64,000 nt of DNA, taken from the NCBI RefSeq assembly GCF_002564025.1, contig NZ_PDJH01000001.1:2108001-2172000 (forward strand), given 5' to 3'. The stretch is from Flavimobilis soli. GTDB lineage: Bacteria > Actinomycetota > Actinomycetes > Actinomycetales > Cellulomonadaceae. This document shows, one piece after another, positions 57,977 to 62,440 of this stretch. The translations under genes and the position numbers were made by a program. Numbering within the stretch: the first letter of the stretch is position 1; the number at the start of each line of letters is the position of its first letter. Under the pieces are notes generated by a model that was not told the DNA's origin, did not search any database, and was given only the letters and a program-made list of their open reading frames with translations.

Positions 57977-60547
57977 TCAGGGCTGGGGCGTGCCAGGACG
58001 CGGTCGGCGGATGCGGCCGCGGCCCGGGTCGAGGTCGCCCTCGGCGCCCTCACCGTCGCGCACGACCCGGGGCGTGGGGGTGCAGGCGAGGACGACGTCG
58101 AGCAGCCGCACCGCGGCGTCCTTCTCGAGCGGGTTGTTCTGCGAGCCGCACTTGGGCGACTGCACGCACGCGGGGCAGCCGCTCGCGCACGGGCACGCGG
58201 CGATCGCTTCGCGGGTCGCGCGCAGCCAGGTCGCGCCGAGCTCGTAGCCGCGCTCCGCGAAGCCGGCGCCGCCGGGGTAGGCGTCGTACACGAAGACGGT
58301 CGCGTGCTCGGTGTCGACGTGCAGCGCGGTCGAGACGCCGCCGAGGTCCCAGCGGTCGCACGTCGCGAGGAGCGGCAGCAGGCCGATCGACGCGTGCTCG
58401 GCGGCGTGCAGCGCGCCGGGGACGGTCTCGGCGGTGAGCCCGGCGGCCTCGAGGACGGCGGCGGGCGCGGTCCACCACACGGCGACGGTCGACAGGGTGC
58501 GCGGCGGCAGGTCGAGCTCTTGCGAGCCGACGACCTCCAGCCCGGGCAGCCGACGCTTCGTGAAGCTGATGACCTGCGTCGTCACGTCGACCTCGCCGAC
58601 GCCCCACGTCACGGGCGCGGGTCCCGAGTCCCAGGTCCGGGACCGCAAGGTGTTCTGCACGGCGATCGTCGTCACGTCGTGCGACCACGTGCCGTAGTCG
58701 ACGTCGCGGCGTCGCACGAGCGCGACGTGGTCGGTCAGGTCGAGGTGGTCGACGACGAACGTCGCGCCCTGGTGCACGTACACCGCGCCGTCGTGCACCG
58801 AGCCGTCCGCGGCGGGCTGGTCGATCGTGCCGAGCATGCGGCCCGTCGCGGCCTCGACGACGCGGACGGGCTGCCCCCCTGTGCCGCGCAGGTCGGTGAG
58901 CTGCGACGCGGGCTCGGGGTGCGTCCAGAACCAGCCGGTCGGGCGGCGGCGCAGCGCCCCGCGTGCGGTGAGGACGTCGAGCACCTCGGCCGCGTGCGCA
59001 CCGAACGTGTCGAGCTCGTCGGGGCGTAGCGGCCGCTCGGCTGCGGCCGCGCACAGGTGGGGCGCGAGGACGTGCGGGTTGCCGGGGTCGAAGACGGTCG
59101 CCTCGAGCGGTGCGTCGAGGATCGCCTCGGGGTGGTGCACGAGGTACGTGTCGAGCGGGTCCTCGCGGGCGACGAAGACGACGAGACCGTCGGCCCCCGC
59201 GCGTCCGGCGCGGCCGGCCTGCTGCCAGATCGACATGCGGGTGCCGGGCCATCCGACGATGAGGACGGTGTCGAGCCCGGAGATGTCGACGCCGAGCTCG
59301 AGCGCGTTCGTCGTCGCGAGGGCGCGCAGCGCACCTGTGCGGATGGCGCTCTCGAGCGCGCGCCGCTCCTCGGGGAGGTACCCGCCGCGGTACGCGGCGA
59401 CGGAGTGCTGCAGCGCGGGGTCCACCTCGCGCAGGGCGCGCTGGGCGCTGAGCGCGACGGACTCGGCGCCGCGGCGCGACCGGGTGAAGGCGAGGCTGCG
59501 GGCGCCCGCGCACGTGAGGTCGGCGAGGAGGTCGGCGGCCTCGGCGGTCGCGGACCGCCGCGGGCGCTCCTCGACCTCGGGCGTCTCGACCCACCACTCG
59601 TCGGTGCCGGTGGTCGCGCCGTCGGGCCCGACGCCGGACGGCGCGACGACCTGGAAGCCCTCGAGCCCGGAGTCGACGGGTGGGAGCTCGGGCGGCTCCC
59701 ACAGCACGAACGTGCGCGTGCCCGACGGCGCGGTGTCTGCGGTGACGGCGACGACGTCGCTCTCGTCGACGCCGACGAGGCGCGCGGCGCTGCGCGCGGG
59801 CTCGGCGGTCGTCGCGGACGCGACGAGGAAGACGGGGCCGGGCCCGCCCGAGTAGTGCTGGCACAGCCGCTTGAGCCGGCGCAGCACGAGCGAGACGTGC
59901 GCCCCGAACACGCCGCGGAACGCGTGCCCCTCGTCGACGACGACGTAGCGCAGCGACCGCAGGAACCGCACCCAGCGGGCGTGGCCGGGGAGCATCGAGA
60001 AGTGCAGGAAGTCGGGGTTGGTCAGGACGGCGTCGGCGTGGTCCTGGACCCAGCGGCGCTCGGTGAACGGTGTGTCGCCGTCGCACGTCGCGACGCGCAG
60101 GTCGCGCACGTCGGCGGCGCGCAGGAGGCGTTCGACGCCGCTGAGCTGGTCCGCGGCGAGGGCCTTCGTCGGGCAGAGGTAGAGCACCGAGCCGCGGGAG
60201 CGGACGTTCTCGATGCGGCTGAACGCGGCGGTGCCCTCGGCGGCGGCCAGGCTGTCGGCCCGGACGGACGTCAGGGCCGGGAGCCAGAAGGCGAGGGACT
60301 TGCCCGACCCGGTCGACGTGCCGAGCGCGGTGTGCCGTCCGTGCCACGCGGCGTCGGCCGCCTCGACCTGGTGGCGCCACGGACGCTCGACGCCGAGCGC
60401 GCGGTACCCGGCGACGAGCGCCGGGTCCGCCCACCGAGGCCAGTCCGCGTGGACGCCCTCGCGGGCGAGCAGGTGGGCGATGTGCGTCGCGCTCTCGGCA
60501 CGACGACCCCCGGCGAGGAGGACGTCGAGGAGGTCGGGTGCGGGCAC
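57977..60547 (-). CDS. DEAH-type superfamily 2 helicase with C-terminal DUF1998 zinc cluster (YprA/MrfA-like)
   Basis: An 856-residue helicase: HQVEAADAAW Q-like motif, Walker A GTSTGSGKSLAFWLP, DEGHAF (DEAH-like motif II), SATTAEP, TRSRRGAE, TTNALELGVDI and QQAGRAGRAG (motif VI). The C-terminal domain ends with the cysteine cluster CPCASGCPACVQSPKCG, the DUF1998 iron/zinc site of YprA/MrfA, a helicase linked to mitomycin-type DNA-damage repair in Bacillus. GTG 60547 with GAGG upstream was chosen; GTG 60610 would also be in frame. Confidence 0.92.
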   Translation of the reverse strand: MPAPDLLDVLLAGGRRAESATHIAHLLAREGVHADWPRWADPALVAGYRALGVERPWRHQVEAADAAWHGRHTALGTSTGSGKSLAFWLPALTSVRADSLAAAEGTAAFSRIENVRSRGSVLYLCPTKALAADQLSGVERLLRAADVRDLRVATCDGDTPFTERRWVQDHADAVLTNPDFLHFSMLPGHARWVRFLRSLRYVVVDEGHAFRGVFGAHVSLVLRRLKRLCQHYSGGPGPVFLVASATTAEPARSAARLVGVDESDVVAVTADTAPSGTRTFVLWEPPELPPVDSGLEGFQVVAPSGVGPDGATTGTDEWWVETPEVEERPRRSATAEAADLLADLTCAGARSLAFTRSRRGAESVALSAQRALREVDPALQHSVAAYRGGYLPEERRALESAIRTGALRALATTNALELGVDISGLDTVLIVGWPGTRMSIWQQAGRAGRAGADGLVVFVAREDPLDTYLVHHPEAILDAPLEATVFDPGNPHVLAPHLCAAAAERPLRPDELDTFGAHAAEVLDVLTARGALRRRPTGWFWTHPEPASQLTDLRGTGGQPVRVVEAATGRMLGTIDQPAADGSVHDGAVYVHQGATFVVDHLDLTDHVALVRRRDVDYGTWSHDVTTIAVQNTLRSRTWDSGPAPVTWGVGEVDVTTQVISFTKRRLPGLEVVGSQELDLPPRTLSTVAVWWTAPAAVLEAAGLTAETVPGALHAAEHASIGLLPLLATCDRWDLGGVSTALHVDTEHATVFVYDAYPGGAGFAERGYELGATWLRATREAIAACPCASGCPACVQSPKCGSQNNPLEKDAAVRLLDVVLACTPTPRVVRDGEGAEGDLDPGRGRIRRPRPGTPQP

Positions 60548-60691
60548 GGGCCAATCCTCGCACCCGGTCCGTGCCCGCCCAGTGATCCAGGCGTGGACAC
60601 CTGTTGACACCCCTGGAAGCCCCGCCTAGATTGCGCAGTAATTCCGGAACGCAGGGTGAAAAGCCAGGCTCTGGAAGGACTCGACAGGACA

Positions 60692-60800
60692 AGGTCACGA
60701 GTACCAGCGACAAGCCCCGGCTCGCTGGTCAGCAACCCTCCCGCGCGGTGGGGTGCTCCGGGTGAGGACCTGGCACCGACCCTCGGTGCAAGAGCGCAGC
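60692..60800 (+). promoter_or_regulatory. SAM-IV riboswitch
   Basis: Stem P1 AGGTC (60692-60696) pairs with GACCT (60767-60771); P2 ACCAGCGA (60703-60710) with TCGCTGGT (60722-60729). The conserved SAM core pieces AAGCCCCGGCT, CAACCCTCC, GGGGTGCTCCGGGTGA are present, and a following hairpin GCACCGA-CCC-TCGGTGC (60773-60789) is the downstream stem of the SAM-IV type. SAM-IV riboswitches occur in actinobacteria and regulate sulfur genes. The Cys/Met-rich leader peptide and monooxygenase follow. Confidence 0.88.
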
Positions 60801-60832
60801 CGCGAGAGCGGTTCGGACAGGAGACACGCACG

Positions 60833-60937
60833 ATGATGGCAGGACGGCTTCGCACCCCCGCGTCGATCTCGCTCGCCCCGGTGATGTGTATGGCCTGTAT
60901 GCCCTGCGGGTCCGTCGCCTGTTGTCACCGCGACTGA
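60833..60937 (+). CDS. 34-residue Met/Cys-rich leader peptide
   Basis: ATGATG at 60833, nine bases after CAGGAG. The C-terminal half reads VMCMACMPCGSVACCHRD, so the peptide has five cysteines and five methionines (two at the start). It sits between the SAM-IV riboswitch and a stem-loop starting eight bases after its stop. The composition suggests a ribosome-mediated sensor of charged Cys/Met tRNA, as in actinobacterial cysteine attenuation. It is too small to judge by codon statistics. Confidence 0.7.
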   Translation: MMAGRLRTPASISLAPVMCMACMPCGSVACCHRD

Positions 60938-60944
60938 CCCGCTG

Positions 60945-60965
60945 AGGTCCGCCCAGCGCGGACCT
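60945..60965 (+). terminator. Attenuator-like hairpin after the leader peptide
   Basis: AGGTCCGC-CCAGC-GCGGACCT, eight perfect pairs, starting eight bases after the peptide stop. A second GC-rich hairpin (CCGCGCCC/GGGCGCGG, about 60985-61000) follows. A stalled ribosome on the cysteine codons would alter the first hairpin. Confidence 0.55.
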
Positions 60966-61160
60966 TCTGCCGGCGACCGCCGCCGCGCCCCGGGCGCGGA
61001 CGACGGCGCCTGACCGTCCTTCACCGGACACCGCCGATGCCGGCTCTCAGAGCCCCCGGCCGTTGCAGTCACCTCGGCGCACGCTGCGCACCGTCCCACA
61101 CGACGACGTGAGTCCGTGGGGTCGGTGCTGCGCGCCGCCGTCACGCAGAGAGCGAAAGCC

Positions 61161-62138
61161 ATGACCTCGAGCACCACCCGCACCAGCACCACCGACCGTC
61201 AGATCCACCTGGGCATCGACCTCACGAGCGCCGGCGCCCGCCGCGTCACGAGCCGCGTCCCCGTCGCGTCGTTCGCGAGCGCGTTCGACGCCGAGCGGCT
61301 CGCCGACCTCGTCGCCGCGGCGCAGCGCGGCACGCTCGACTTCGTCGCGATCGACGACACCTTCCGCCTCCAGCCCGAGACCGTCGGGCTGCTGCGCGGC
61401 CGCCTCGACGCGGCGGTCGTCGCGTCACGCCTCGGCAAGACGACGCGCGGCGTCGGCCTCGTCGCGACGATCTCGCCCGAGGCGACCGACCCGGAGCACG
61501 TCGCGACCGCGCTGCAGACGATCAGCCGCGTGTCCGGCGGCCGCGCCGGCTGGCAGGTCGACGGCAGCGCGCCCGACCGTGCCGTGACGGCGGTGACGCG
61601 AGCGGTCTCGTCGGTCGCGCCGACCGTCGTGCGCGTCCGCACGGATGCGCAGCTCGAGCGCGCTGCCCGCCACGCGGACGTCCTGCGCATCGCGGCGACG
61701 GACCTGGACTCGGCGCTCGAGCAGCGCCGTCGGGCCCGCACGATCGCCGTCGAGGCCGGCCGCTCGGCCGACGACGTCCTCGCGCTCGTCGACGTCTACG
61801 CCGTCACGGGTCCCGACGCGGAGAGCGCGCAGGCGCGCGTCGAGCTGCTCGACGCGTTCGAGGGGACCGACGTCGTCGCGCAGCACTCCGACTCGCTCAT
61901 CCACGTGGGCACGCCGCTCGACCTCGCCGAGCTCGCGGAGGCCTGGTTCGCGGCGGGCGCCGTCGACGGTTTCGTCGTGACGCCGTCGTCCCTCGTCGCG
62001 GACGTCGCGGGCCTGGTCGACGGCGTCGTGCCGGCGCTCCGGGCGAGCGGCCTGTTCCGCCGCGAGTACCCGGGGGCGACGCTGCGCGAGTCCCTCGCGC
62101 TCACGCCGTCGGGCGTGGAGGCCCTCGCCGGCGTCTGA
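61161..62138 (+). CDS. Luciferase-like (LLM) flavin-dependent monooxygenase, short form
   Basis: A 325-residue protein of the NtaA/SnaA/DszA branch of flavin monooxygenases. RVSGGRAGWQVDG and the C-terminal DGFVVTPSSLVADVAGLVDGVV with LFRREYPGATLRESL are the clearest family segments. Full-length members have about 430-450 residues; the N-terminal part and a middle segment are reduced here. The sulfur-responsive leader suggests it acts on an organosulfur compound or feeds sulfur assimilation. ATG 61161 was chosen over GTG 61116. Confidence 0.8.
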   Translation: MTSSTTRTSTTDRQIHLGIDLTSAGARRVTSRVPVASFASAFDAERLADLVAAAQRGTLDFVAIDDTFRLQPETVGLLRGRLDAAVVASRLGKTTRGVGLVATISPEATDPEHVATALQTISRVSGGRAGWQVDGSAPDRAVTAVTRAVSSVAPTVVRVRTDAQLERAARHADVLRIAATDLDSALEQRRRARTIAVEAGRSADDVLALVDVYAVTGPDAESAQARVELLDAFEGTDVVAQHSDSLIHVGTPLDLAELAEAWFAAGAVDGFVVTPSSLVADVAGLVDGVVPALRASGLFRREYPGATLRESLALTPSGVEALAGV

Positions 62139-62203
62139 CCTCGCTCGTCCGACGCCCCGCCCGGTCCTCTCCGGGCGGGGCGTCGTCGTGTCCAGGGGCC
62201 CCC

Positions 62204-62440
62204 ACGGATCGCCCTGGTGCACACCTGTGGCGTGCAACGGAGCGATTGGTCGGGACGGGGGAGCGACGGATCGCCCTGGTGCACACCTGTGGCGTGCAAC
62301 GGAGCGATTGGTCGGGACGGGGGAGCGACGGATCGCCCTGGTGCACACCTGTGGCGTGCAACGGAGCGATCGGTCGGGACGGGTGAGCGACGGACCGCCC
62401 TGGTGCACACCTGTGGCGTGCCACGCAGCGATCGGTCGGG
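62204..62440. repeat. 62-bp tandem repeat, about 3.8 units
   Basis: Units start at 62204, 62266, 62328 and 62390; the first three are nearly identical, the last ends near 62440 with more changes. Each has GGATCGCCCTGGTGCAC, ACCTGTGGC, GTGCAACGGAGCGAT, a weak palindrome related to the elements at 22571, 22641 and 48134, plus a linker of about 20 bases. There are no unique spacers and no cas genes. Confidence 0.95.

Follow-up and report, generated by a model that had tools for sequence, protein, structure and literature searches.

In the window, the 64,000-nt stretch of Flavimobilis soli DNA analysed here, a complete SAM-IV riboswitch aptamer is followed by a short Cys-rich leader open reading frame (ORF) and then by a gene for a luciferase-like flavin monooxygenase (Table 1). 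The same order of riboswitch and leader recurs behind SAM-IV aptamers in 14 genera, the Cys codons of these leaders are biased towards TGT, and leader and riboswitch also occur separately. We propose, as a reading with about an even chance of being right, that the SAM-IV aptamer gates initiation of a Cys-sensing leader, in which case expression of the gene would require low levels of both SAM and charged tRNA-Cys. The odds that we give to a two-sensor reading rest on the recurrence and the codon bias.

Table 1. Features of the SAM-IV, leader and monooxygenase locus (positions in the window)
Feature	Position	Strand	Basis or details
Promoter-like site TTGACA-17-TAGATT	60604..60632	+	consensus scan, 10/12 positions
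SAM-IV riboswitch aptamer	60693..60800	+	Rfam RF00634, full model
Candidate CCGC-GAGA-GCGG hairpin, aptamer tail to leader SD	60800..60811	+	weak evidence
AGGAG Shine-Dalgarno (SD) of leader ORF	60819..60823	+	sequence
34-codon Cys(/Met)-rich leader ORF	60833..60937	+	MMAGRLRTPASISLAPVMCMACMPCGSVACCHRD; Cys codons TGT TGT TGC TGT TGT
Hairpin with last two Cys codons in loop and leader stop in 3' arm	60906..60942	+	fold
C-rich, G-poor spacer of 223 nt, candidate Rho loading region	60938..61160	+	composition only
9-bp hairpin 3' of leader stop, without U-tract	60944..60966	+	fold
Luciferase-like (NtaA/DmoA-related, short-form) flavin monooxygenase gene	61161..62138	+	Pfam, NCBIfam

The aptamer matched the Rfam SAM-IV model with 100.2 bits (gathering cut-off 38, E 3.4e-17) over model positions 1-116, that is, completely, and with no flagged non-standard pairs, so that by its score over the full model it is a full member of the class. 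The complete SAM-IV structure described in the initial annotation is therefore borne out by the covariance model, with a score that is anything but low. It is the only SAM-IV copy that Rfam found in the window, and a second SAM-IV of the same genome precedes a class V aminotransferase gene. Upstream of the aptamer lies a sigma-70-like promoter match, for which 50 shuffles gave a mean of 0.0 matches. Regarding the candidate hairpin between the aptamer and the leader SD, p was 0.10 for the window, where the local fold did not form it. A hairpin of some kind occupies this interval in 24 of the 30 leader loci described below, beginning no more than 3 nt from the aptamer end in 18; a conserved aptamer-to-SD hairpin was rejected, with shuffles beaten at p<=0.05 in only 7 of the 30.

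The leader ORF starts 32 nt past the aptamer end, and its last 16 codons hold five Cys codons; a short ORF led by an SD, with Cys codons clustered near the stop, is what is looked for in a Cys attenuator. The initial annotation had described a 34-codon ORF with a Met/Cys-dense end at this place, and we confirmed it together with its SD. The peptide found no match in Pfam or NCBIfam, and a comparison with the families NF042933, NF042934 and NF042936 returned none of them at E values of 10 or less.

Six genomes of the genus, the window's own included, were compared at this locus, and in all six the orthologous monooxygenase is preceded by an in-frame Cys-rich leader. The helicase gene upstream appears by eye to be common to the genus and was identified (TIGR03817) only in the window. 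G000 and G001 have one leader peptide in common. The leader of G003 and G004 (MHQAGWQR..MCMCMSTCADRCCQR) has an N-terminal half unrelated to that of G000 and G001 and a Met/Cys ending of the same style, while G002 and G005 carry MLHATRTR..MCMPAPA(L/M)CCM..GCQL. The conservation among relatives to which the initial annotation had tied its reading was thus found, since the ORF and its Cys/Met ending are present in six of six species, with N-terminal halves that differ between clades. Likewise, the Cys codons are identical letter for letter within the three sister pairs (14 of 14; 5, 5 and 4), which is weak evidence when taken alone because identity over the entire leader is already 93-98%. Over its last 60 nt the leader is 100% alike between G003 and G004, against 85% for the spacer, a clear excess confined to this pair; in the other two pairs the corresponding values were 92% against 90% and 95% against 91%, and G000 and G001 agree better over the N-terminal part (98%) than at the Cys end (92%). 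The SAM-IV aptamer is present at this locus in four of the six species and absent from G002 and G005. In G005, AACGATCAA leads directly into AGGAG and the leader start, whereas in G003 the aptamer sits between AACGATCAA and AGGAG, as if the riboswitch were a module that a locus may carry or lack. Lower-scoring SAM-IV copies of G003 and G004 (L009, L010) precede other ORFs.

SAM-IV was found in 198 of the 221 genomes of the family. Counting as a leader an SD-preceded short ORF that starts no more than about 85 nt past SAM-IV and has two or more Cys among its last 16 codons, we found one behind 30 of the 181 loci examined, distributed over 28 genomes, 14 genera and three families, whereas control searches with this criterion turned up 2 of 181 on the antisense strand and 0 of 179 at positions further downstream. 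By set, leaders occurred at 4 of 10 loci of the genus, 23 of 80 mid-scoring loci of the family (0.3 expected from dinucleotide shuffles), 3 of 40 mid-scoring loci of the order, and none of the 51 top-scoring loci (0/26 in the family, 0/25 in the order). The mid-scoring sets comprise 80 of the 134 loci listed for the family and 40 of the 112 listed for the order; four loci at contig edges (L022, L027, L176, L182) were left out of the 181, and the tiny leaders of L161, L166 and L167 and the leader of L208, all of them below the criterion, stand outside the 30. The proportion of 30 in 181 is no group-wide frequency because the loci were selected and the genomes were mostly picked for having several SAM-IV copies, and the 30 leader loci, sampled non-randomly, are related to each other. 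The top-scoring copies directly precede the start of a long gene, mostly aminotransferase-like by eye (only L001 was run). At L161, L166 and L167, which belong to other families, SD-led ORFs of seven codons (MTCRMPF, MIQRMCP and MTCRMRR) stand behind SAM-IV and are possible minimal Met/Cys leaders.

The gene behind the leader was examined in seven of the 30 loci, by means of 260-residue fragments. Two matches were above the cut-off, namely CysD (L193) and an NtaA/DmoA-family enzyme (L120), and the others were best matches below it: NtaA/DmoA (L086, L186), MetN (L101), a nickel-type ABC permease (L124) and an ABC binding protein (L125). The control of "one monooxygenase" put forward in the initial annotation is accordingly too narrow, as the genes behind other leaders include cysD and ABC-transporter genes whose best matches are MetN-like and of the nickel/peptide type. 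The leader of L193, before cysD, passed the NCBIfam model NF042934 (cut-off 27) with 32.6 bits, and that of L208 passed it with 29.8 bits, and hence SAM-IV can also stand in front of a Cys leader of an established family; the NCBIfam Cys-leader models gave no match to the other eight of the 10 non-window leaders run. Among the homologues of the window enzyme in the family (E 1e-40 or better), a Cys-rich short ORF lies upstream in 21 of 21 by plain count, and SAM-IV is present at 10 of the 21 (the window and 9 of the 20 others), which leaves 11 with the leader and without the riboswitch. The leader thus appears as the constant element and the riboswitch as an optional module. In L045 the first start of the leader ORF is not preceded by an SD, and Cys ORFs of this SD-less kind were seen in several homologue loci as well. 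Such SD-less, Cys-containing short ORFs are what one would point to in arguing that the ORF arose by chance in a high-GC leader and that SAM-IV alone matters. This explanation was rejected by the shuffle, antisense and downstream controls, the choice of TGT codons and the leader in six of six species of the genus also speak against it, and we find it hardly credible.

The codon usage of the leaders carries much of the case for a Cys input. The in-frame Cys codons of the 30 leaders comprise 74 TGT and 29 TGC, whereas the downstream genes have a TGT:TGC ratio of 39:263 (Fisher 1e-28 against the leaders); this ratio is 11:166 for the 38 long window ORFs that are GC3-rich, 5:67 for the spacers behind the leaders in any frame, and 29:43 when the leaders themselves are read in their two other frames. 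The last Cys lies 0-3 codons ahead of the stop in 26 of the 30 leaders, all 30 stop codons are TGA, and 13 leaders end in Cys-Arg-stop. From these comparisons, selection seems to act on the identity of the Cys codons and on their position next to the stop. Such a pattern would be expected if the ORF is a leader meant for reading, and not if it encodes a functional protein. The opposite case, in which the short ORF would encode a small Cys-rich protein with a function of its own in metal or thiol binding and SAM-IV would merely control the gene at the head of the operon, as the Mbox of Mtb does with Rv1805A, can draw on the paired Cys residues and on that precedent, as given in the available text of PMC12810186. 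We hold it to be very improbable given the biased choice of Cys codons, the lack of a Pfam or NCBIfam match for the window peptide, and peptides that range from 8 to 43 codons and, apart from the Cys cluster near the stop, look unrelated between clades.

Regarding Met, it stands directly ahead of the first Cys in 13 of the 30 leaders, most leaders have no Met run, and it accounts for 27 of the 409 non-Cys residues near the leader end. Between sister species, one internal Met is replaced by Pro (G001) and another position is Met or Leu (G002/G005). The Met pattern may be a second input or merely a context that favours pausing; Met sensing is weakly supported, and we do not claim it. Of the two-input control suggested in the initial annotation, the two-sensor architecture holds, the Cys input is supported by the choice of TGT, and the Met input is the weaker part. 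A related pattern was observed at 99 loci with a long gene immediately behind SAM-IV (e.g., L001, L012, L018 and L037): the first 25 codons of these genes contain 21 TGT and 12 TGC, against a TGT:TGC ratio of 10:268 past codon 25, counts that are inflated by related sequences. A rare Cys codon near the start of such genes might be a built-in Cys sensor.

For the RNA that follows the leader, a consensus scan of 60500-62300 returned no terminator-like sites, and a classical attenuator with an intrinsic terminator (a GC hairpin and a U-tract) was set aside for that interval. The region 60900-60990 of the window folds at z = -4.87 and contains two hairpins, one at the leader end and one just beyond it; the initial annotation was right about a hairpin after the leader and gave its length as 8 bp, where the fold has 9 bp. 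The hairpin at the leader end is kept in G001 and absent from the folds obtained for the remaining four genus members, and the unusual folding of the leader end is likewise common to the window and G001 and was not seen in those four. A structured leader end as a general element was rejected, since z was -2 or lower in only 7 of 36 loci.

These folds bear on the possibility that the same two sensors operate with a translational Cys step, in which leader and spacer RNA would hide the SD of the main gene and a stalled ribosome would free it. The stable leader-end structure of G000 and G001 is consistent with such a step, and translation attenuation of Cys genes in M. smegmatis is cited in the available part of PMC13236596. 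The small share of loci with a strongly folded leader end counts against it, as does a comparison of the leader left free with the leader blocked at its first Cys codon, in which only 3 of the loci scored showed a change in main-SD openness exceeding 0.15 (one up, two down); this comparison scored 20 of the 30 loci, with the window locus among the ten unscored. SD unmasking by stalling therefore gave no consistent signal in the scorable loci, and we retain it as an unlikely rival.

Attenuation by Rho is what the composition of the spacers suggests. In the window, the C/G ratio of the spacer is 1.47 over its first 178 nt, and 160-nt stretches of the window have a median of 1.00 and a 95th percentile of 1.43, with 7.8% reaching 1.36. 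All 30 spacers behind leaders are C-rich and G-poor (C/G 1.36 to 2.03, median 1.67), so that, as far as composition goes, RNA of the kind sought for a Rho attenuator lies past the leader in 30 of 30 loci. This richness in C is not unique to leader loci, because C also prevails over G, at an intermediate level, just past SAM-IV in loci that lack a leader (median C/G 1.37 in the first 160 nt). The genome has a rho gene (620.7 bits). Since no terminator was found in the scanned interval, rho is present and the spacers are C-rich, Rho-dependent attenuation is favoured.

The position of the leader suggests how it may be tied to the riboswitch. In the 30 loci the leader starts 10-62 nt past the aptamer (median 32), within the range seen for genes directly behind SAM-IV, and as the leader starts where such genes start, the simplest reading is that SAM-IV acts on leader initiation. 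The locus would then be a control region with two inputs in series, in which the aptamer sets whether ribosomes start on the leader, and a leader once started would report charged tRNA-Cys and perhaps tRNA-Met too. Ribosomes would pause at the clustered rare TGU codons just ahead of the stop, and a paused ribosome would shield the C-rich RNA behind it from Rho, allowing transcription to reach the monooxygenase gene. With high SAM the leader would not be started, and with plentiful Cys the ribosome would leave fast; in both cases Rho would end transcription. The output would be NOR logic, with the gene on only at low SAM and low Cys. The sign of the SAM effect, the pause and the role of Rho are what we infer from the arrangement of the elements.

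A folding proxy for the SAM-bound and free states was applied to the leader SD, which was more open when bound in 13 of the 30 loci and less open in one. A net shift towards off was likewise missing from the 115 loci with a gene immediately behind SAM-IV (6 less open and 13 more open), so that the proxy speaks neither for nor against a hiding of the leader SD by SAM. Taken at face value, the 13 leader loci would favour an opposite sign, with SAM opening the leader SD. Alternatively, SAM-IV and leader could act separately and additively, like the attenuators of Salmonella mgtCBR, for which the leader without SAM-IV at 11 of the 21 homologues and the additive precedent in the available text of PMC3641672 can be adduced. 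We regard this pair of alternatives as improbable, given that the proxy is uninformative on direct SAM-IV loci and that the leader starts fall within the range of direct SAM-IV gene starts. The gating of leader initiation by SAM-IV is the reading that we prefer. In its widest form, which we advance tentatively and rate somewhat short of even, it would describe a hierarchical two-sensor RNA across many actinobacterial genera, in which the riboswitch decides whether a codon-reading leader is read, a NOR gate responds to SAM (the end product) and Cys (an intermediate), and the riboswitch is gained or lost between related genes while the leader is kept.

The protein encoded behind the window leader matched Pfam Bac_luciferase with 45.8 bits (cut-off 27.9), in agreement with the luciferase-like monooxygenase of the initial annotation, and its best NCBIfam match was TIGR03860 (NtaA/DmoA), with 123 bits, under the cut-off of 279.7. 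Values of dN/dS of about 0.11, 0.16 and 0.08 in the three sister pairs of the genus indicate that the enzyme is under purifying selection. The window enzyme and its five genus orthologues have no counterpart of some 80 central residues that the G205 homologue has, despite the purifying selection seen in the sister pairs; the window enzyme is a natural short form of an NtaA/DmoA-type enzyme. Its relatives include proteins of Sanguibacter hominis (96% identity) and Flavimobilis rhizosphaerae (72%). As to whether the controlled gene is a sulfur gene, the window enzyme resembles NtaA/DmoA below the cut-off and cysD is clear in L193; a role of the enzyme in sulfur metabolism is presumed here, and a NOR output would fit a sulfur-scavenging enzyme. 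Past the monooxygenase gene, a tandem array occupies 62204-62440 (62-bp unit, 3.8 copies, 97% matches).

SAM-IV riboswitches and Cys-rich leaders are each known; their combination, a riboswitch ahead of a Cys-reading leader, did not turn up in the literature searched, where coverage of subscription papers is incomplete, in line with the initial annotation, which knew of no such described arrangement. The window element is a full-scoring member of RF00634 whose next ORF is a Cys-rich leader, whereas for the known SAM-IV genes of S. lividans (SLIV_26975, a cysteine desulfurase; PMC8079986) and C. glutamicum (cg1478) the available parts of the descriptions show no leader ORF. The actinobacterial Cys leaders (NF042933 Ms5788A, NF042936 Ms4527A, NF042934 cis_reg_atten, and those of the Mycobacterium cys operons, PMC1262725) are alike in being short ORFs with Cys codons near the stop and no obvious terminator, as far as the available accounts go; in contrast to them, the window leader matches none of these three families and stands behind a riboswitch. 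For Cys leaders without terminators in Actinobacteria, the available text of PMC1262725 suggests Rho as one possibility.

Other systems share single features with the window locus. The metL leader of S. lividans (MSTTSDRTPATEATTTPGARCMCRRMCAF), upstream of metNIQ, also ends a sulfur-gene leader with a mixed Met/Cys run; unlike the window, metL is described as leaderless, hence without a riboswitch in front, in the part of PMC8079986 that is available. The B12 and Mbox riboswitches of Mtb (PMC11260477, PMC12810186) likewise combine a riboswitch with a short upstream ORF, translated in Mtb, and for Mbox a translational platform and Rho-dependent termination are reported (PMC12810186); in the accessible portions of these papers, the ORFs are not described as amino-acid sensors, unlike what we propose for the window leader. 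The tandem attenuators of Salmonella mgtCBR read two signals, ATP and proline, on one leader mRNA, one of them through the codons of a short ORF, and differ, according to the accessible text of PMC3641672, in having two short ORFs that act independently and additively, with no SAM-IV-like aptamer in front. Finally, uORFC-8-2, upstream of Rhodobacterales cysS, has tandem Cys codons in a leader, but it has an intrinsic terminator, UGC dominates, and a riboswitch is not mentioned in the available part of PMC8632094.

Riboswitches and leader-peptide attenuators are usually studied as alternatives; in the present loci, which come from 14 genera among those examined, a single mRNA carries both in series. 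The arrangement suggests that existing SAM-IV annotations are worth re-reading for hidden leader ORFs. Natural versions with and without the riboswitch make the combining of two sulfur signals without a protein regulator testable, and in these bacteria expression of the next gene may depend on two sulfur signals read by a single mRNA.
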